This document shows, one piece after another, positions 1 through 38,338 of a stretch of 38,338 nucleotides of DNA (positions are counted from its first letter, which is position 1; each line of letters begins with the position of its first letter). The stretch is from NCBI RefSeq assembly GCF_001591705.1, contig NZ_BCVK01000018.1, forward strand, positions 1-38,338. Reading direction: 5' to 3'. The position numbers and the translations under genes were made by a program. The DNA comes from Lactococcus cremoris subsp. cremoris NBRC 100676. GTDB taxonomy: Bacteria > Bacillota > Bacilli > Lactobacillales > Streptococcaceae. The notes under the pieces were generated by a model that did no database searches, was not told the DNA's origin, and saw only the letters and a list, made by a program, of their open reading frames with translations.

Positions 1-74
1 AATTCGGGTTATTTCTTATATTTTTTAATCAATGGTGAACTTCTATAATAAAATTTTAGAGTTACCTGTCATTT

Positions 75-899
75 TTAATTTTTCGTAAATTTTAGATAAG
101 TACAATCCAACCAACCAGATTCACCACTGCGTTCAACTAGAAAACTACTTTCTGTAACCTTTCCAATTGCTAGACCCATTTTTTGCCACTGAGCAAAATG
201 CTCTGAAATAGAAATGGTTCCTTTTTGTCTTGGACTTTGTCTAATCGCAAAATATTGAGTAAAAGTTTGATTTCCGTCAATAGAGGGCTGGTCTTCTCTA
301 ACATTTTTGATGACTTGATAAGTCGCTCCGTCAAGTTGATATGTCCCAAGCACATTACCTTGCGTTGTAGCGGTTGTAATCGGAGTTTTTTCAGATTGTT
401 CACCATTACCAAACCAATCATCAACAATATAATACTCGACAAGCTTTTCATTAGGGTCAGTCGCAGTTTCATTACGAATCCAGCCGTAAATTCCTATATA
501 GTTATAATTTCCTGCTGTTCCTTCTCCTGATTTTTTATAACTAAACTGACAAGAAATATTTCCAATATTTTTAATGTCTTCTCCAGCATTCGTCCAACTA
601 TAGCCAACACGTGCTAAAAAATCATCCGAATCTGACCAAGTCGCCTTAAAAGCTGCACCACCTCTTTGTGATGCCCCATACCAAGAAAGCGTATGTTTCA
701 CCCCTCCTTGATACCATAAAGTATAGTCATAGGGGCTTTTGCCTAATGTTTGCGGACCGTTACTTTGTGCTTGAAAAGTTTGCACCGTTGGATTTTTTTC
801 ATTTTTATCTAGTAATTTTTTATTTTTACAAGCTTGCAAGCCTAATAGAGCAAAGATGATTAGACTTATTAGAGTGAGTTTTTTAGTTCCTCTTCTCAT
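75..899 (-). CDS. Lipoprotein with a glycoside hydrolase family 11 endo-1,4-beta-xylanase domain
   Basis: The 274-residue product starts with MRRGTKK, a hydrophobic stretch and a lipobox LQAC (Cys24), so it should be a lipid-anchored exported protein. The rest reads as a GH11 jelly-roll xylanase. It shows FLARVGYSW (94-102), YIGIYGWIRN (134-143), the nucleophile signature LVEYYIVDDW with Glu155, NVREDQPSIDGNQTFTQY (199-216), then GTISISEHFAQW (227-238) and the acid/base region LVERSGESGW with Glu256. The length fits a GH11 domain of about 200 residues plus signal and linker. GH11 enzymes hydrolyse internal beta-1,4 bonds of xylan. The adjacent xylA and xylR support a xylan/xylose role. A GAGG ribosome binding site precedes the ATG. 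The motifs and both glutamates are seen; activity and anchoring are inferred. Confidence 0.85.
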   Translation of the reverse strand: MRRGTKKLTLISLIIFALLGLQACKNKKLLDKNEKNPTVQTFQAQSNGPQTLGKSPYDYTLWYQGGVKHTLSWYGASQRGGAAFKATWSDSDDFLARVGYSWTNAGEDIKNIGNISCQFSYKKSGEGTAGNYNYIGIYGWIRNETATDPNEKLVEYYIVDDWFGNGEQSEKTPITTATTQGNVLGTYQLDGATYQVIKNVREDQPSIDGNQTFTQYFAIRQSPRQKGTISISEHFAQWQKMGLAIGKVTESSFLVERSGESGWLDCTYLKFTKN

Positions 900-948
900 T
901 GTTTTTCCTCAAACTTTACGGATTTTGTAAAGCTATTTCATAACAACA

Positions 949-996
949 AAAAAATAAGTTATCTCGCAAGTTTGATAAAACCTCACGAGATAACTT
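949..996 (-). terminator. Terminator between xylA and the xylanase gene
   Basis: An 11-bp inverted repeat (AAGTTATCTCG / CGAGATAACTT, arms 956-966 and 986-996) is followed on the minus strand by ATTTTTTT. It lies just after the xylA stop, so xylA readthrough into the xylanase gene is probably limited. Confidence 0.75.
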
Positions 997-1005
997 TATC
1001 AAAGT

Positions 1006-2331
1006 TTAAACAAGATAGTCATTCAATACTGATTTGATATATTCTAAGTGGTTAGAATCAAGTTCGATGTCATCCCCATGCTCAAGAGCATAAGCAGCAA
1101 GACTTTCAAAAGTTGCTGTTCCATTTTCGATAGATTGACCAACTTCTGTCTTCTTGTATGAACTATAACGTTCTTCAACGATATCAGACAAGAATTTGTC
1201 TTCAATGATGGCTGCTGCACCTTTAAGCGCACGTGCATAAGTATCCATCCCTGCAATATGAGCCAAAATCAAATCTTCGGCTTTGAAGCTTGTACGACGA
1301 ACTTTGGCATCAAAGTTAATTCCACCTTTACCAAGTCCACCGTTCAAAAGAATTTGGTGCATAGCAAGCGTGATATCAATGACAAGTGTTGGAAATTCAT
1401 CAGTATCCCAGCCGAGCAAATAATTTCCTTGATTGGCATCGATTGAACCTAAGGCACCAAAAGTACGTGCAGTATTTAATTCGTGTTCAAAAGTATGACC
1501 AGCCAACCAAGCATGGTTTGTTTCAAGATTGAGTTTGAAATATTTGTCCAAATCATATTTTTGCAAGAAAGCAAGAGCTGTCGCTGCATCAAAGTCGTAT
1601 TGGTGAGTCATTGGTTCTTTTGGTTTTGGTTCAATCAAGAAGATTGGCAAATGGTTAATTGATTTTGCATAATCAATCGCCAAATGGAAGAATTTTGCCA
1701 TGTGATCCATTTCAAGACCCATGTCTGTGTTCAAAAGTGATTCGTAACCTTCACGACCACCCCAGAATACGTAGTTTTCACCACCAAGTTTTTTAGAAAG
1801 TTCAAGTCCTTTTTTGACTTGAGCAGCACCATAAGCAAAAACTTCAGCACGATTTGATGTCGAAACCCCATTCATATAACGTGGGTTTGAGAACATATTT
1901 GCCGTATTCCAGAGGAGTTTAATGCCTGTTTCTGTTTCTTTTTGTTTTTCAAGAAGATGGTCAGTAATTTCATCTAAGTTTGCATAAAATTCTTTCAAAG
2001 AATTTCCTTTAGGCGCGATGTCAATATCATGGAAACAATAATATTTAACACCCAATTTTTCGGCAATTTCAAAGAAAGCATCTACTCGACGATGAGCACG
2101 GTCAAGTTCAGAGCCACCTTCCAAGTCCCAAGGACGTTCCATTGTGGCACTACCAAATGGGTCAGCCCCGTCCATCGTAATTGTATGCCAAAAAGCAAGG
2201 GCGAAATGAAGCTGTTCTTCCATTGTTTTCCCAGCAACCACTTCTTCTGGGTTATAATGGCGGAAGGCAAACATGTTTTTAGTTTTTGTACCTTCATATT
2301 TGATAGGTGCGATGTCGTTAAAGTAAGCCAT
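1006..2331 (-). CDS. xylA: Xylose isomerase
   Basis: XylA interconverts D-xylose and D-xylulose (EC 5.3.1.5), the first cytoplasmic step of xylose use. The 441-residue length is typical of class II bacterial xylose isomerases. It carries the catalytic YYCFHDIDIAPKG segment (His and Asp), the VFWGGREGYESLLNTD signature, IEPKPKEP and NHAWLAGHTFEHEL, which supply metal and substrate ligands. All landmark residues appear intact. A strong AGGAGG ribosome binding site precedes the ATG at 2331. The gene is divergent from xylR, the likely activator, across a 104-bp gap. The usual downstream partner xylB (xylulokinase) is absent here: the next gene is the GH11 xylanase. Identification is secure; use in xylose growth depends on a kinase elsewhere. 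Confidence 0.97.
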   Translation of the reverse strand: MAYFNDIAPIKYEGTKTKNMFAFRHYNPEEVVAGKTMEEQLHFALAFWHTITMDGADPFGSATMERPWDLEGGSELDRAHRRVDAFFEIAEKLGVKYYCFHDIDIAPKGNSLKEFYANLDEITDHLLEKQKETETGIKLLWNTANMFSNPRYMNGVSTSNRAEVFAYGAAQVKKGLELSKKLGGENYVFWGGREGYESLLNTDMGLEMDHMAKFFHLAIDYAKSINHLPIFLIEPKPKEPMTHQYDFDAATALAFLQKYDLDKYFKLNLETNHAWLAGHTFEHELNTARTFGALGSIDANQGNYLLGWDTDEFPTLVIDITLAMHQILLNGGLGKGGINFDAKVRRTSFKAEDLILAHIAGMDTYARALKGAAAIIEDKFLSDIVEERYSSYKKTEVGQSIENGTATFESLAAYALEHGDDIELDSNHLEYIKSVLNDYLV

Positions 2332-2435: not shown

Positions 2436-3374
2436 ATGAACATGAAAAATGAATTAGAGAATATTTATCACTCAAAAATAAATAATTTTAATTTTTTACT
2501 TGTTGATATTACTTACCGTAAACCTCATCTTCATTTTGACATTGAATTAGCATTTGTCTTAGAAGGGCTCGGTACTGTAACCACTCAAGAAAATTTCTTT
2601 GAAATCACTGCTGGACAAGCTATTATTTTTAATAGTTGTCAGGTTCATGAGCTTTCATCAAGTGACTCTATGAAACTGTTAATTCTGCAATTTTCATCAG
2701 AAATTTTTAAAATTATCTTCCCTCAACTTGATAAAATTTATTTTGAAAGTCACCCTTTCAATCTAGAAAATCAACCTGAAACCTTGAAATTACTCTTGCA
2801 AGCAGCCTTAAGTTATTTTGCAGATGATAAGAATAATTCTTTACGAACTCACGGCTATACTTCACTTTTACTAGACCGTTTGTTAAGTATTTCTGAGTAC
2901 AGTATTTTAAGCAGCTCTGAACAAAATAAATTGATGGACCTGCAAGAGCGAATGGAGCGGATTTCTTCCTACATTCATGAGAACTACGACCACAAAATTT
3001 CTCTGGAAATGATTGCCTCACATGAAGGATTGTCCCGAACTTATTTTTCTCATTTCTTTAAAAGTAATTTTGGGATAAATTTTAACGAATATTTAAATAA
3101 AATCCGTTCAGAAAAAGCAAGAACACTCCTTTCTTCTTTCAAAGATAATTTACTAAACATCGCTTATATGTGTGGCTTTTCGGATATCCGAACGCTCAAT
3201 ACTGCTTTTGTCAAATCCTATGGCGTTTTGCCAAAAGATTTTCGGAAAAACAATGTTCTCTTCCCCAATCTGAACTATATGACTTTCAATCAAGATAAAA
3301 TTGATAATCAAGTTTTTTATTCTGATAGGGGTTCTCTTGATATTTTGCAATACTATCTCGAAAAACAATTTTGA
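2436..3374 (+). CDS. xylR: AraC-family transcriptional regulator of xylose genes
   Basis: This 312-residue protein has a cupin-like sensor half (HLHFDIELAFVLEGLGTVTTQ near 30-50, a typical AraC_binding motif) and a C-terminal double helix-turn-helix. The first helix pair is ISLEMIASHEGLSRTYFSHFFKSNFGINFNEYLNKIR; the second includes LLNIAYMCGFSDIRTLNTAFVKSYGVLPKDFR. Lactococcal XylR is an AraC-type xylose activator, unlike the ROK-type XylR of bacilli, and the divergent xylA supports this name. AGGAG lies only three bases before the first ATG (2436); a second in-frame ATG at 2442 is nine bases away and is an equally reasonable start. The ligand is inferred. Confidence 0.88.
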   Translation: MNMKNELENIYHSKINNFNFLLVDITYRKPHLHFDIELAFVLEGLGTVTTQENFFEITAGQAIIFNSCQVHELSSSDSMKLLILQFSSEIFKIIFPQLDKIYFESHPFNLENQPETLKLLLQAALSYFADDKNNSLRTHGYTSLLLDRLLSISEYSILSSSEQNKLMDLQERMERISSYIHENYDHKISLEMIASHEGLSRTYFSHFFKSNFGINFNEYLNKIRSEKARTLLSSFKDNLLNIAYMCGFSDIRTLNTAFVKSYGVLPKDFRKNNVLFPNLNYMTFNQDKIDNQVFYSDRGSLDILQYYLEKQF

Positions 3375-8336: not shown

Positions 8337-9734
8337 AAGAATAATACAAGTGATTTTAATTTAAAAAAAGTCTTACCCGCAGTTTTAACAATTGCGATTG
8401 AGATACTTTTAGTTATGATGGATACCACCATCATGAATGTGACACTTCCACATATCCAAACTGCTTTTCATCAAAATTTATCTAATAGTCAGTGGGTCAT
8501 TACCGCTTATACTCTGGCTATGGCAACGGCTATCCCTTTTGCAGGTTTTCTGGGGGACCGCTTTTCAGATAAACGCATTTTCGCTCTGGCAATCATTTTT
8601 TTCACCATTGCTTCACTCTTGGCAGCAAATGCGCATTCTCTTCAGAGTTTAATTATTTGGCGAATTGCCCAAGGCTTGACTGGTGGCGTCGTTGCTCCAA
8701 TAGGAATTGGGATGTCCTTTAAAGTTATTCCAATGGAAAAAAGAGGCTCTATGATGGGAATTTTGGGCTTACCCATGCTACTTGCACCGACAATTGGTCC
8801 AGCACTTTCTGGTTTTTTGGTAAAAGATTTTAATTGGTCAACTGTTTTTTTGATTAATCTTCCTGTAGGAATATTGGCTCTTATTTTCATCCTCTTATTT
8901 CTTCCTAATTTTCCAGCAAATAAAGCAAGTAAAATTGATTTAAAAGGCGCTCTTCTTTCTCCCTTTGCTTTTCCGATTTTAATTTATGGTGTGCATATTG
9001 GTGCAGATAAAGGCTGGTCAAACCCAAGCGCTATCGCTTTTATGTCCGTTGGTTTACTGATGCTCCTTTTGTTTATCCTTGTTGAATTACGTGTCGAAAA
9101 CCCACTTTTACATTTGTGAGCTTTCACGATTCCTGAATTTACAAAAGGTATTTCACTCATGTGGCTCAATCAAATTGTTGTGTTTGGAGCCATGCTTCTG
9201 GTTCCTCTCTACTTTCAAAATATTGTGGGACTTTCCTCTGTTAATACCGGATTAATGATGGTTCCACAGGCGATTGCAAGCTTTTTAGGAATGACAATTG
9301 GTGGTCGAGTTTTTGATAAATTTGGTACGAAAGCCGCGGTTCTTCCTGGCTTTACACTTGGCGGAATCAGACTCATCTTATTCGCGCAAATTAGTCCGCA
9401 CTCTTCATTGACTTTTACGCTTTGTGCGATTGTTTTACTTGGTTTAAGCCAAGGTCTGGTCAATATGCAAGTCAACAATCACGCACTACAAGCCGTTCCA
9501 ATGAAAAATATTAGCCGAGTGACACCTTTAACCAATGAAATGATGCAAGTGGTCAACTCATTTGCAATTGCCTTTCTGACAGCATTTTTAAGTAGTCAAA
9601 TCAAAAATCAAAGTAGTCTTTCTCCATTACAAGCTAATTTAACAGCCTTCCATCATACTTTCTGGCTTCTTCTTATCTTCGTATCCGTAGGATTTATCTC
9701 AAGTCTTTTTTTAAGAAAAAAAGTAAAAGTATAA
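8337..9734 (+). pseudogene. DHA2-family (EmrB/QacA-type) MFS drug exporter, decayed by a nonsense codon and probable start loss
   Basis: Codons 8415-9119 encode the N-terminal half: MMDTTIMNVTLPHIQ (the DHA2 motif D1 region), GFLGDRFSDKRI (MFS motif A) and LAPTIGPALSGF (motif C). A TGA at 9117-9119 interrupts it, and the same frame continues AFTIPEFTKGISLMWLNQIVV to the normal end at 9734. One CGA-to-TGA change would explain this. Upstream, the frame stays open to an AAG at 8337 placed five bases after AAGG, where an ATG would be expected. Restoring both gives about 465 residues, normal for 14-helix DHA2 proteins. Loss of start and stop together argues for a true pseudogene; re-initiation at 9159 cannot make a complete carrier. 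Confidence 0.85.
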
Positions 9735-14632: not shown

Positions 14633-16221
14633 CTAAGCAATTCCCTGACCTAAATGAATGACTTCATCCAAATAATTTTGAGTTTCATCATACAAATGGT
14701 GAGTAATCATAATCACAGTCAAATCGGGATTTTCTAAAATATTTTTTTCTACAGCCAGAGCCGTTTTCTTATCAACACTGGCAGTGCTTTCATCCATCAC
14801 TAAAATCGGTTTTGTCCCCATTAATTCCCGCGCAACAGATAATCTTTCTTGCTGACCTCCTGATAAATTTTTATCATAAATCGTATCAAGTTTATTAAAC
14901 ACAAAATCATCAGCACAGGCAATTCTAATCGACTTATCAAAAATATCTGGCGAAATCTTACGACCCAAAGTCAAATTTTCCTCTACCGTTTCCCTAAAAA
15001 GATAAGGGAATTGCATAATTACGCTCATGACATGTGGTAAAGATTTTCGGTTAATTCCCTTATAATCTTTTCCATCAAGTAAAATTTCTCCTTCATAATC
15101 TCGCTTATTGCCGACTAGCAAATTAATTAAGGTTGATTTACCACTACCACTATCCCCGATAATCGCATATTTCTTCCCCTTTTTCAATGACAATTTCTGG
15201 ATATTCAATTTTTTGGCCATCAGGAAAAGCGACAGACAGATTTTTTAACTCCAGTTTACTTTCAAAGTCTGTCACTTCTTCTCCGTCAGTAACTTTTGAT
15301 TCGTCAGCAATTTTTCCATATTTTTCTAGCAATTTCCCAGTAGCATTGAGCAAAATCAAGCTATTTGCTACACTTTTTGAGTAATTAGTAACTGTTCCTG
15401 ACAGATTCCCCACGCTCATGACAACACCGATTCCAATCTGACCATTCATGATGAGAAAACCAGCAACAGCTAAAATCAAAAATTGTCCCAACATATTGGC
15501 CCCTAATAAAGAATATTGCATCCAAGCCCGAGTAAAAATTAATTTTACATTTGCCGTAGCCAATTGATTAAATTTACCCATGGTTCGCTCTTGCATCAGC
15601 CCCAGTTGTTTATTGTGATAGAGCACTTCATAGCCACGTAAGTAATCTGTAGATTTCGCTAAAGCATCATTAGCAACATCTGAAACCTGTTCTGTGTCTC
15701 GTTCCACTGATTTCTTAAAGACTTTTGGAAAATAGAACAAAATGGCTCCAACTAGAAGTGTTGTCAAAAGCAATACCCAGTGGAAAAAGATGATTGCAAT
15801 TCCTGAGAATAGCATCGCAACGATTCCCGTATAAACAAAATAAATCTGATGGAAACCATTATCATAAAGTAGTTTTGTATCATTATTTAACCAGGAATTA
15901 TAATCTTCTTTACTGTTTTTTTCAAAATCAGAATAAGAAATTTCCGTCAGAGGTTCAATGATATCCCGGCGTACAGCATTAAGCTGCTTTTGTATGGCAA
16001 TTTCTTTCCAAACATCACGCGCCCTGAACAAAACTATCGACCACCCAGAGGACAATGTCAATAGCTAACCATAAGAAAAATTGATTCATTTCTCTAGCAA
16101 TCAAAGAATTGAGTACATTGGCCAAAAAGACCGAACTCAAGACCGCAAGAGCAATGTCAATCGTGATAAGTAAGAAAACCATAAAATTTTCAAATTTGAA
16201 TTCTTTAAGATACTTTACCAT
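14633..16221 (-). pseudogene. ABC exporter (fused membrane and ATPase domains) with two frameshifts
   Basis: The ATG at 16221, behind GAAGG, starts MVKYLKEFKFENFMVFLLITIDIALAV. The frame ends after VVDSFVQGA; removing one G from the GGG there gives VQARDVWKEIAIQKQ and restores the next frame (15150-16061), an ABC transmembrane domain. A second break in a GGGG run near 15170 ends that frame; three Gs would give IEKGKKYAIIGDSGSGKST, the Walker A. The rest has LSGGQQERLSVAREL (signature), ILVMDESTASVD (Walker B) and TVIMITHH (H-loop). Two single-G insertions turn 1,589 bases into 528 codons plus stop. The substrate is unknown. Both lesions are in G runs, so sequencing error is possible. Confidence 0.82.
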
Positions 16222-20985: not shown

Positions 20986-21792
20986 TTAAGGATAAACAAT
21001 GCTTGCAACAAGGCTTCCATCAGGGTTTCTGAAATTATACTTAATTGATAAATTGGAAATCCCCGCATTTTGGAAAATTGATTGATTTTCAGTAAGTAAA
21101 GGGGTTAATTGTTTTTTCAAATCTTGAATTTTATCAGGACTGAGTGAACCATGATTTCGAGAAAAAGTAAAATCGACAACAAGCACGTTACCGCTAGCGC
21201 TAACATTCACCTTGTTAAATATTCCCCCACTTTCATTCACAATGTTTGAACTTGCTGTATTCAGTGCATCAGCAATTTCCTGCAAAGAATTATTTGAAGG
21301 ATTTACTGACAAACTGACAGCATTCCAAGCGACTGCTTTATATTTCCAACCAATATTAATTAAGTTATTTTCTTCAAATAAATTTCCCGTGTAATTATGA
21401 GCTCCAGATTGAGCATTGGGGTTGTAAGCAACATATATCGGCAAATTTCCGCCTGAATAAAAAACTGCTTTTCCTTGATTATCCCACTTCCAGCCTTTAT
21501 TTACTAAAGACTGCGCTTCATACTTACTTTTAGTGTAGTAATGGTCTCCACCCGCAGCATTGGGGTTATAAAGGCGATAAACGGTTATCCCTTTATCTGG
21601 TGCTACCCAACCCAATCCTTCATCAGTCCAACCAGCACTAATATCAACCGCTCGCTCAGTTGCACTCGTAGTATAAAAATGCTCTCCGGTATTATGATTA
21701 TAGAGACGATAGACCATACTATCGGCACTCACTCGAAATCCTACTGCGAGGGTGGTTCCAACTATTAATAAAGTCAATAATATTTTTTTCAT
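20986..21792 (-). CDS. Secreted protein with DUF5648-type repeats
   Basis: The 268-residue product has a signal peptide (MKKILLTLLIVGTTLAVGFRVSADS). Three related repeats of about 40 residues follow: VYRLYNHNTGEHFYTTSATERA, VYRLYNPNAAGGDHYYTKSKYEA and VAYNPNAQSGAHNYTGNLFEEN, each ending near a GW motif. These look like the DUF5648 repeat found in surface or secreted proteins, some of them lytic enzymes. The C-terminal 100 residues are a separate domain ending VDFTFSRNHGS...SIKYNFRNPDGSLVASIVYP, which I cannot name surely. A close paralogue with a different C-terminus lies at 34399-35271. A cre-like site precedes the gene. Export and carbohydrate or wall contact are plausible; no enzymatic motif is visible. 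Confidence 0.75.
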   Translation of the reverse strand: MKKILLTLLIVGTTLAVGFRVSADSMVYRLYNHNTGEHFYTTSATERAVDISAGWTDEGLGWVAPDKGITVYRLYNPNAAGGDHYYTKSKYEAQSLVNKGWKWDNQGKAVFYSGGNLPIYVAYNPNAQSGAHNYTGNLFEENNLINIGWKYKAVAWNAVSLSVNPSNNSLQEIADALNTASSNIVNESGGIFNKVNVSASGNVLVVDFTFSRNHGSLSPDKIQDLKKQLTPLLTENQSIFQNAGISNLSIKYNFRNPDGSLVASIVYP

Positions 21793-34398: not shown

Positions 34399-35271
34399 TC
34401 ATGGAATAACTCTAAAAAAAGCCACCGCTGCCATACTATTCGCCATTTGAGGGCTTGTACCAGAATAATTCACAAAAATTCGTTGTTGCCCAGTTGAATC
34501 GTCTACTTTTTTATTATTAGGGAAAGCAACTTCTGTTGGTACAACAAAAATGTTAAGTGGACTACCAGGGGAAATCTCTCCATTTTTTAAGGCAATATCT
34601 GCAGTTCCATTAAATTGTTGACCTGCGCCAAGTTCAAAGGTTTGATTCTTTGCCCCTTTCCATATTAAAGTAAGATTTCCCATTGCATTAATTTCAAGCA
34701 TATTTCCAGAAGTATCTTTCCAAGTTCCAACAATACTAGAAAAATTACCATTAACAATTTGAGCAATGTTTAACATTTCGTTTTTTGCTCCAATCCCGTA
34801 CCAAGCTACTGCCCCATATTTCCAACCAGTATTCAATAAGCTATTTTGCTCAAAGCTACTTTCCGTGTAATTGTGAGCGCCAGATTGTGCATTGGGATTA
34901 TAAGCGACATATACGGCTTGAGAACCTCCAGAATAGAAGACCGCCTTTCCGTTATTATCCCATTTCCAACCCTTATTTACTAAACTTTGGGCTTCATACT
35001 TGCTTTTTGTGTAATAATGGTCTCCGCCCATAGCATTTGGATTGTACACACGGTAAACTGGGCTTGAACTTGTTGTTGGTGCGATCCAACCGACACCTTC
35101 ATAAGTCCAACCCGCACTTACATTAGCATTCTTTTCTGTCCCACTAGTTGTATAGAAGTGCTCACCAGTATTATGATTATACAAACGATAAACATTTGTA
35201 TCTGCATGAGCACCCCCAACAATCAGTAAGCTAGCCCCTATAAAGGCTGTTCCAAGTAAAAGTTTGTTCAT
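34399..35271 (-). CDS. Secreted protein with DUF5648-type repeats, second paralogue
   Basis: The 290-residue product has a signal peptide (MNKLLLGTAFIGASLLIVGGAHA) and three DUF5648-like repeats: VYRLYNHNTGEHFYTTSGTEKN, VYRVYNPNAMGGDHYYTKSKYEA and VAYNPNAQSGAHNYTESSFEQN. These are nearly identical in wording to those at 20986-21792. From about residue 165 the two proteins differ. This one has IVGTWKDTSGNMLEINAMGNLTLIWKG, a lipocalin-like or DUF6287-like pattern, then VNYSGTSPQMANSMAAVAFF. So a shared adhesion-like module is joined to different C-termini. A cre-like site lies upstream. No enzymatic motif. Confidence 0.75.
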   Translation of the reverse strand: MNKLLLGTAFIGASLLIVGGAHADTNVYRLYNHNTGEHFYTTSGTEKNANVSAGWTYEGVGWIAPTTSSSPVYRVYNPNAMGGDHYYTKSKYEAQSLVNKGWKWDNNGKAVFYSGGSQAVYVAYNPNAQSGAHNYTESSFEQNSLLNTGWKYGAVAWYGIGAKNEMLNIAQIVNGNFSSIVGTWKDTSGNMLEINAMGNLTLIWKGAKNQTFELGAGQQFNGTADIALKNGEISPGSPLNIFVVPTEVAFPNNKKVDDSTGQQRIFVNYSGTSPQMANSMAAVAFFRVIP

Positions 35272-36534: not shown

Positions 36535-38338
36535 TCAGGCAGTTTCTGAACCTTCTAATTCAACAGCTGCTTTTTCTTCTTCTAAAGCTTTATTATCCGC
36601 CACCTTAAAGAATGGGTAGTAAATAAGAACATTCAAGACTAAACAGATTGCAAAAATAATCAAAAATGGAAGTCCACCTGAAATGGCCATTCTCACAGGT
36701 GCTGGTGTCGTCCAAGGAAGAAGTGCCGTCATTGGATTCAGATTTGTAATATTTAATATCTTTGCCAAGCCCAATGCTACAGTTCCTAAAATTGCTGGTT
36801 GGAAAACCAAAGGAATAAAGAAAATAGGATTTAACATCATTGGAAGACCAAAAAGTAATGGTTCACTGATATTGAAAATACTAGCAATTGCACCTAATTT
36901 TAATAATTGTTTATAGCGTTCAGATTTTGCCGTAAACATTGAAATAACTAACCCATAAGTATTTCCACTTCCGCCCCATGCGTTCGCACCCACAGCAAAC
37001 ACAATCATCATTTGTAAGTATGGTACAGGTTTTCCGGCAGCATAGGCATCAATATTAGCATATGACATTGTTAATAACAATGGATTTAAAATTCCCCCAA
37101 TTAAATTAGGGTGGATACCAAAGAACCATAAGAAATTACCAAAGGTAAAGATGCCCATAAGAACCCATGGATTTGCCACAGCACCAGTCAACGGTGCTTG
37201 AATTAGTTGTGTTGAGAAATTGAAAATATCATGGAATGGCGTATAAGAGAATCCCACACGAATCCCGAACATCAAACAGAAAATCACCATTGAAATAATT
37301 GCTGGACTTAGTGAATCTACAACCATTGGAGGAACTCCAGCTGGTAATTTAATAACTAAATTTCTTTTGCTCAATTGTATATAGACTAATGAAACAATAA
37401 AACCAATTATGATTGCTACAATTAATCCTGTGCTACCCGTGTATACCGTTTGAAATGCTTCAACATTTGACACACTGTCAACTACCGCGGATTTCGGAAA
37501 TTCGGTTGGAATGTTTTTTACTACAGGGACACTAATAATTTGTGGCATTAGCATTAACAAACTTGCGATTGATAATAAACCGGCCGTATGGCCATTATAT
37601 TCATGACGATTTACACCTGTCTCTTTTTTGAATTGTGAAGATAAATAAGAAATATTCATGTGTAGCTCTTCTGCAATTTCACTCACACTTAGTTTTTCGT
37701 ATAAATGATTAACAATATACTTTTGACAAGATAATATTTTATAAGAAACCTGACAATATCGATGCTGTTTCACTTTATCTGCAAAATCGATCATCACATT
37801 ATAGGCAAGCGTTCTAATTTCTTCTAATTCCGTTAATTCTTCAAGCTCTTGAATATATAAATCACTCATCAAAAAAGCTTCTTCTTCAGGTAATCCTCCC
37901 TGTATAGCCGAACGAGTAGTCATAGTGATGACTGAAATCAAAATGTTTTTCTTATGTCGCATTGAATTATTAGATAATTTTCCAGCAGTTCCTTTATTCA
38001 TATAATTTGAAAAAGCTTTTTTTAACTCTGCAACATCTCCACGAATAACACATTCCCCCAAATATTTTTCAGAAAGATATGTTTTATGGAATTTACTTTC
38101 CTCACGTATTGGAATCATTTCCATTTCAATTGGTTTAGCAGCAAGCAATGGAGAAATAATATGCTGATTTTTTTCAAATAATTCTTCATAATCTAATTTT
38201 TCTTGAAAAATCATTTGATAGAGTAAAATACCACTTTTTAATAATTGTTTTACTTCAACGGGGAAAGGATTATTTGCAAGTTTTTCTTGTCCTTTAAAAA
38301 TAAGTAGAAGATACTCCTCTTTACCAAATACAGAAAAA
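36535..38338 (-). CDS. In-frame fusion of an AraC-type regulator with a truncated PTS EIIC (cellobiose/lactose type); 5' end outside the window
   Basis: The frame is open from the window edge (38338) to 36535; the ATG at 38214 has no ribosome binding site and sense codons continue upstream (VFGKEEYLLLIFKGQEKL), so the true start lies outside. Numbering from that ATG, residues 1-204 are an AraC-family regulator ending in its first helix-turn-helix, LSVSEIAEELHMNISYLSSQFKKETG (175-200). Its second helix-turn-helix is missing. From about 206 the protein is an EIIC permease: GHTAGLLSIASLLMLMPQI, about eight membrane segments, WFFGIHPNLIGGILNPLL, NISEPLLFGLPMMLNP and LPWTTPAPV. Around 90-100 N-terminal EIIC residues are lacking. 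It is likely a deletion product and probably non-functional in both roles, but with no stop codon. Confidence 0.85.
   Translation of the reverse strand, partial: FSVFGKEEYLLLIFKGQEKLANNPFPVEVKQLLKSGILLYQMIFQEKLDYEELFEKNQHIISPLLAAKPIEMEMIPIREESKFHKTYLSEKYLGECVIRGDVAELKKAFSNYMNKGTAGKLSNNSMRHKKNILISVITMTTRSAIQGGLPEEEAFLMSDLYIQELEELTELEEIRTLAYNVMIDFADKVKQHRYCQVSYKILSCQKYIVNHLYEKLSVSEIAEELHMNISYLSSQFKKETGVNRHEYNGHTAGLLSIASLLMLMPQIISVPVVKNIPTEFPKSAVVDSVSNVEAFQTVYTGSTGLIVAIIIGFIVSLVYIQLSKRNLVIKLPAGVPPMVVDSLSPAIISMVIFCLMFGIRVGFSYTPFHDIFNFSTQLIQAPLTGAVANPWVLMGIFTFGNFLWFFGIHPNLIGGILNPLLLTMSYANIDAYAAGKPVPYLQMMIVFAVGANAWGGSGNTYGLVISMFTAKSERYKQLLKLGAIASIFNISEPLLFGLPMMLNPIFFIPLVFQPAILGTVALGLAKILNITNLNPMTALLPWTTPAPVRMAISGGLPFLIIFAICLVLNVLIYYPFFKVADNKALEEEKAAVELEGSETA

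Follow-up and report, generated by a model that had tools for sequence, protein, structure and literature searches.

The xylanase gene and its neighbours

The window, that is, the whole stretch of DNA analysed here, spans 38,338 nucleotides of Lactococcus cremoris subsp. cremoris NBRC 100676. Near its left end lies an intact open reading frame on the reverse strand (75..899), which starts with ATG and is predicted from ORF, profile, PDB and Foldseek evidence to encode a complete GH11 endo-1,4-beta-xylanase of 274 aa. A Shine-Dalgarno-like GAGG, read from the sequence, is located 5' of the ATG (907..910, reverse strand). The same strand carries xylA, encoding xylose isomerase (1006..2331; TIGR02630, 714.3 bits, cut-off 533.25), and the gene for an AraC-type regulator, probably xylR, diverges from it on the forward strand (2436..3374; PF12833 and PF02311). 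A relative of this regulator lies beside xylA in all 6 of the related stretches, while none of the 25 listed NCBIfam families matched it at the cut-off. The original prediction had placed the xylanase beside xylA and xylR: the TIGR02630 match identifies the first neighbour as xylose isomerase, and the Pfam domains of the second are compatible with XylR. In G011, another genome of the genus, xylA is apparently broken, as it occupies two ORFs (4023-5341 of L092).

Folding of the region between xylA and the xylanase gene revealed a terminator-like hairpin followed by a T-rich tail (942..996, reverse strand; stem-loop 956-996). Its energy is -19.9 kcal/mol, with a z score of -4.40, and none of 200 shuffled sequences was equally stable. 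Hairpin-like sequence, read by eye and not folded, also occurs 3' of xylA in some relatives. A simple scan, which admits loops of 3-8, returned 0 terminator-like sites against 1.8 expected; the loop of the hairpin is 11. The idea that the xylanase belongs to one operon with xylA is weakened by this stable structure between them. No promoter can be claimed, as the promoter scan returned 13 sites against 12.3 expected. A cre-like pattern for catabolite control gave 10 matches against 3.28 expected when one mismatch was allowed, none of them in 900-1005 or 2332-2435.

Family identity and predicted structure

Residues 58-264 of the protein form the GH11 catalytic domain (108..728, reverse strand; the match in the genome scan spans 108-731), and they align with positions 5-175 of the 178 in the Pfam profile PF00457 (E=1.8e-32; 112.9 bits, cut-off 27). 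No NCBIfam family matched the protein at E up to 0.001. At the same threshold, 121 distinct PDB sequences match it, the best being 5gv1 and its mutants (E from 3.9e-76), titled endo-1,4-beta-xylanase.

The predicted nucleophile, Glu155 (codon 435..437, reverse strand), lies within LVEYYIVDDW, which begins at residue 153, and the predicted acid/base, Glu256 (codon 132..134, reverse strand), lies within LVERSGESGW, which begins at residue 254. The PSIDG and HFAQW segments start at residues 205 and 234, respectively. Both glutamates are invariant in the 39 aligned sequences and are aligned to Glu in 5gv1, and the xylanase keeps all 22 invariant columns of the alignment. The assignment to GH11 originally made from these motifs and residues is borne out by the profile search. 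The sequence evidence thus confirms that 75-899 encodes a genuine GH11 protein, a predicted endo-xylanase, with a match far beyond chance.

An AlphaFold model, built on an alignment of the xylanase with 38 of the 64 fetched relatives, reached a pLDDT of 82.9 and a pTM of 0.83. It consists mostly of β-strands, with a helix at residues 231-240 and short helices at 109-112 and 176-179; residues 161-180 are modelled at lower confidence. The top Foldseek matches are the 5gyf-5gv1 group of xylanases (13 chains, TM about 0.8, E about 1e-30, 46-49% identity). Of 208 matches in the PDB with E of 0.001 or less, the best 50 are mostly titled xylanases; 3b5l, among the matches listed, is a designed retroaldolase. 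The predicted model therefore has the β-jelly-roll fold of GH11 and agrees with the crystal structures of known members, best with those of the 5gv1 group. From the alignment to 5gv1 and this match in fold, Glu155 and Glu256 would be expected to face one another in the cleft.

Export and lipid anchor

The N-terminus of the xylanase resembles a lipoprotein signal, in that MRRGTKK is followed by a hydrophobic stretch and GLQAC. Regular expressions delimit a signal peptide with a putative lipobox ending at Cys24 (828..899, reverse strand). The PROSITE PS00013-type pattern is matched by IIFALLGLQAC at residues 14-24. On the other hand, neither the strict lipobox [LVI][ASTVI][GAS]C nor the G+LPP pattern is matched, the residue at -2 being Gln. 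The AlphaFold model places a helix at residues 10-25, at low confidence. The lipid anchor of the original prediction thus stands with the PROSITE-type pattern and fails with the two others, and anchoring on Cys24, at an atypical lipobox, is plausible and perhaps likely.

Most of the ORFs extracted for the relatives are longer than the window protein. A lipobox pattern occurs within the first 60 residues in 3 of the 64 extracted ORFs, a weak count, as the starts were set mechanically and the extractions for L052 and L053 were unusable.

Distribution and phylogenetic position

GH11 is rare around this lactococcus. It was matched in 40 of the 398 genomes drawn from the class, the own genome counted, and in 1 of the 395 drawn from the order and 1 of the 18 of the genus, the own genome being the one in both cases (two of the 18 are less than 90% complete). 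No second GH11 was found in the own genome. The trait is therefore as unusual in the group as had been supposed. A contig scan for relatives, seeded with short stretches of the xylanase and hence favouring close kin, gave 64 loci. These came mainly from Fibrobacter and Bacteroidales of the rumen and other guts, with a few from Myxococcota, Treponema and Nocardiopsis.

A midpoint-rooted tree of 50 rows was built from the xylanase, 5gv1, 38 of the 64 relatives and 10 of 30 Bacilli loci. In this tree the xylanase pairs with 5gv1 (100/96) and is joined next by L023 from a termite-gut Fibrimonadales bin of the Fibrobacterota (100/96). A 100/100 branch separates the 38-row clade from 12 rows, namely the 10 Bacilli, Treponema L061 and Nocardiopsis L063. 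The 5gv1 group, named 'ENZbleach' endo-1,4-beta-xylanase, shares 51.3% identity with the xylanase over 230 aligned residues, together with the fold and both glutamates. The GH11s of Fibrobacter, Paludibacteraceae and the termite-gut Fibrimonadales bin (among L002-L065) belong to the same clade, with about 29-44% identity. The GH11s of Bacilli outside the own order also match PF00457 but lie across the 100/100 branch, and the three that were compared are 38-43% identical to the xylanase over 149-177 residues.

Given that the xylanase groups with 5gv1 and the termite-gut bin, apart from the Bacilli GH11s, horizontal gain, probably from gut microbes, seems the simplest reading. In this tree the xylanase row is on a long branch (0.66) and the root is a midpoint. 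The GC content of the gene is 0.366 against 0.363 for the window, and its GC3 of 0.229 falls just under the range of 0.234-0.363 in 12 other window genes. Carriage on a plasmid was rejected, as a tblastn search of the xylanase against plasmids retrieved 5 records, of which none was from Lactococcus and none covered 80%. Megablast with three overlapping parts of the window yielded matches at 72-78%, together with a single 41-base stretch at 97.6%.

The rest of the xylose operon

Downstream of xylA in the sister genome G007 come xylB (TIGR01312, 589.3 bits, cut-off 380.25) and the genes for an aldose epimerase, a GPH-type symporter and a GH43 with GH43_C2, in that order. The G007 symporter gene, between those for the aldose epimerase and GH43 (L087:8454-9937), is read in two ORFs, so this operon may itself be partly decayed. 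The region from xylA to the pur genes is 80-87% identical to G007 at the DNA level, and the similarity gives out with xylA, at about window position 1001.

The G007 operon DNA found no match in the own genome among the 40 of 187 and 40 of 167 candidates scored, and under the same limit it matched all 6 of the other xylA-bearing genomes of the genus, one of which is the source of the query. At the protein level, xylB retrieved only matches of 30% and 27% from the own genome, which NCBIfam names gluconokinase and glycerol kinase; the six other xylA-bearing genomes gave matches of 75-100%, in two pieces in G001. GH43 is present in 10 of the 18 genomes of the genus, and none was found in the own genome.

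Beyond the xylanase gene the contig runs on for 74 bases, in a draft of 122 contigs that is rated 99.87% complete. Given this position, a gap in the assembly could hide the missing genes from xylB to GH43. We also considered that the contig ends in a repeat and rejected it, as window positions 1-110 have, at best, a second match of 30 bases at 87% elsewhere in the genome. The coupling of xylan attack to xylose use that had been proposed for this locus is not upheld in the draft: neither xylB nor GH43 nor the other genes that follow xylA in G007 were detected there, and a hairpin follows xylA. In the draft genome, the link between the xylanase and xylose use is weak.

A probable remnant beside an apparently lost operon

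We consider it highly likely that the gene encodes an exported GH11 xylanase of the gut clade, which was gained horizontally and probably persists as a remnant beside a xylose operon that seems otherwise lost. This explanation draws on the family, fold match, catalytic pair, tree position and gene order observed here. A lactococcal ancestor would have acquired a GH11 gene of the rumen and insect-gut clade by horizontal transfer, and the gene now sits downstream of xylA. The enzyme would be exported and cleave xylan outside the cell by a retaining two-glutamate mechanism, with Glu155 as the nucleophile and Glu256 as the acid/base, and it would probably be tethered to the membrane by a lipid on Cys24. 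Because the rest of the operon appears to have been lost, it is probable that the xylanase is left over from a plant-associated way of life and does not belong to a functioning xylan-to-xylose route.

It is unlikely that xylose catabolism was lost while the tethered gut-type xylanase was kept by selection for another purpose; if this were true, the enzyme might, for example, open plant material to reach other sugars or to benefit cross-feeding partners. We regard as distinctly improbable a working surface system, in which the lipoprotein GH11 would feed xylo-oligosaccharides to a complete, XylR-controlled xyl operon. The adjacency of the xylanase to xylA and an xylR-like regulator fits such a system, as do the xylB, aldose epimerase, symporter and GH43 genes that follow xylA in G007 and a contig that stops exactly where operon genes would come next. 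However, searches of the own genome with the operon DNA, with the xylB protein and for the GH43 family did not turn up these genes, and the hairpin (z -4.40) lies between xylA and the xylanase gene.

The segment around the acid/base bears on another alternative, that the protein has a divergent GH11 fold and is no longer a xylanase, serving as a binding protein or acting with another specificity. Of the 64 relatives, 3 are not covered by the alignment at the position of Glu256, and all 61 that are have Glu there. Its usual surroundings among the relatives are EAGGGSG or near forms, with exceptions such as EGFNSSG in Treponema L061, and Arg after Glu256, as in ERSGESGW, is absent from all 59 relatives aligned at this site. 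This unusual setting and the lower confidence at residues 161-180 of the model would suit a protein of altered function, whereas both catalytic glutamates and the 22 invariant columns are kept, and a crystallised relative at 51% identity is titled endo-1,4-beta-xylanase. We therefore give very little credence to the loss of xylanase function.

The same segment underlay the suggestion of a divergent GH11 subfamily, based on its departure from the common EGYQSSG form. The corresponding segment of 5gv1, EAGAGEGF, is also non-classical and differs from ERSGESGW of the window protein, and the GH11s of Fibrobacter, Paludibacteraceae and Fibrimonadales mostly have EAGGGSG-like segments. Judged from the aligned sequences, the departure is a clade trait of the rumen and termite-gut GH11s, to which the xylanase adds private variation. 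The divergence of the segment is thus real, but a new subfamily was rejected: the departure is of the kind found in the gut and rumen clade, where a 51% identical relative has a crystal structure.

Finally, it is extremely unlikely that contamination or faulty assembly produced the gene or its junction with xylA. Such an error would suit a gene placed at the extreme end of a contig, in a draft of 122 contigs, and a similarity to G007 that does not extend beyond xylA. However, the gene runs without a break into xylA and the rest of a 38-kb contig that has its xylR-pur genes matched in G007, and its GC content equals that of the window (in spite of a GC3 just below the range of the other genes). 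A GH11 gene is also reported from a carbohydrate cluster of ssp. cremoris strains (PMC6365430).

Relation to the known lactococcal xylanase

A secreted GH11 xylanase has been described from L. lactis ssp. cremoris (PMC6365430). According to that paper, it was the sole xylanase then recorded in lactic acid bacteria and groups with enzymes of arthropod guts and the rumen, and dairy cremoris strains have lost much of the GH11 gene region. Like the window gene, the gene described there encodes a secreted enzyme, lies in a lactococcal carbohydrate-metabolism cluster and has arthropod-gut and rumen kin. The description, as far as it is available, comes without a sequence, a lipid anchor or adjacency to xylA, and the likeness is one of description. 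On this footing, the window xylanase is very probably the same gene.

The published description agrees with the window gene, with its clade and with the gene loss apparent here, and the finding was therefore already known. A GH11 xylanase in lactococci is not new, and the present analysis makes small additions to it, namely the lipobox, the hairpin and the downstream operon genes that seem to be lost from this genome. The locus is a good case of a plant-polysaccharide enzyme that probably passed from gut bacteria into a lactic acid bacterium, within a gene region that dairy strains are reportedly losing, and it is useful for the history of lactococcal domestication. The xylanase is also a possible food-grade enzyme, although it opens no new kind of system.

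Other genes in the window

Towards the other end of the window, an ORF on the reverse strand (36535-38214) fuses an AraC-type regulator in frame to a lactose/cellobiose-type PTS EIIC that lacks its first part. The HTH of the AraC part is matched to profile position 35 of 42. Among the matches listed from the 18 genus genomes, none outside the own genome spans both parts, and we regard the fusion as a deletion or a misassembly near the contig end.

Several other genes seem to be interrupted. A DHA2-type efflux MFS gene is apparently split into two ORFs on the forward strand (8415-9119 and 9159-9734) and is likely a pseudogene. On the reverse strand, an ABC exporter is read as overlapping membrane and ATPase ORFs (15150-16061 and 14633-15220), possibly through a frameshift, and the product of 12993-13535 matches the C-terminal part alone of an NAD-dependent epimerase, starting at profile position 149 of 240, which suggests truncation. 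The reverse strand also encodes two exported-looking proteins (20986-21792 and 34399-35271), both of which contain DUF5648.
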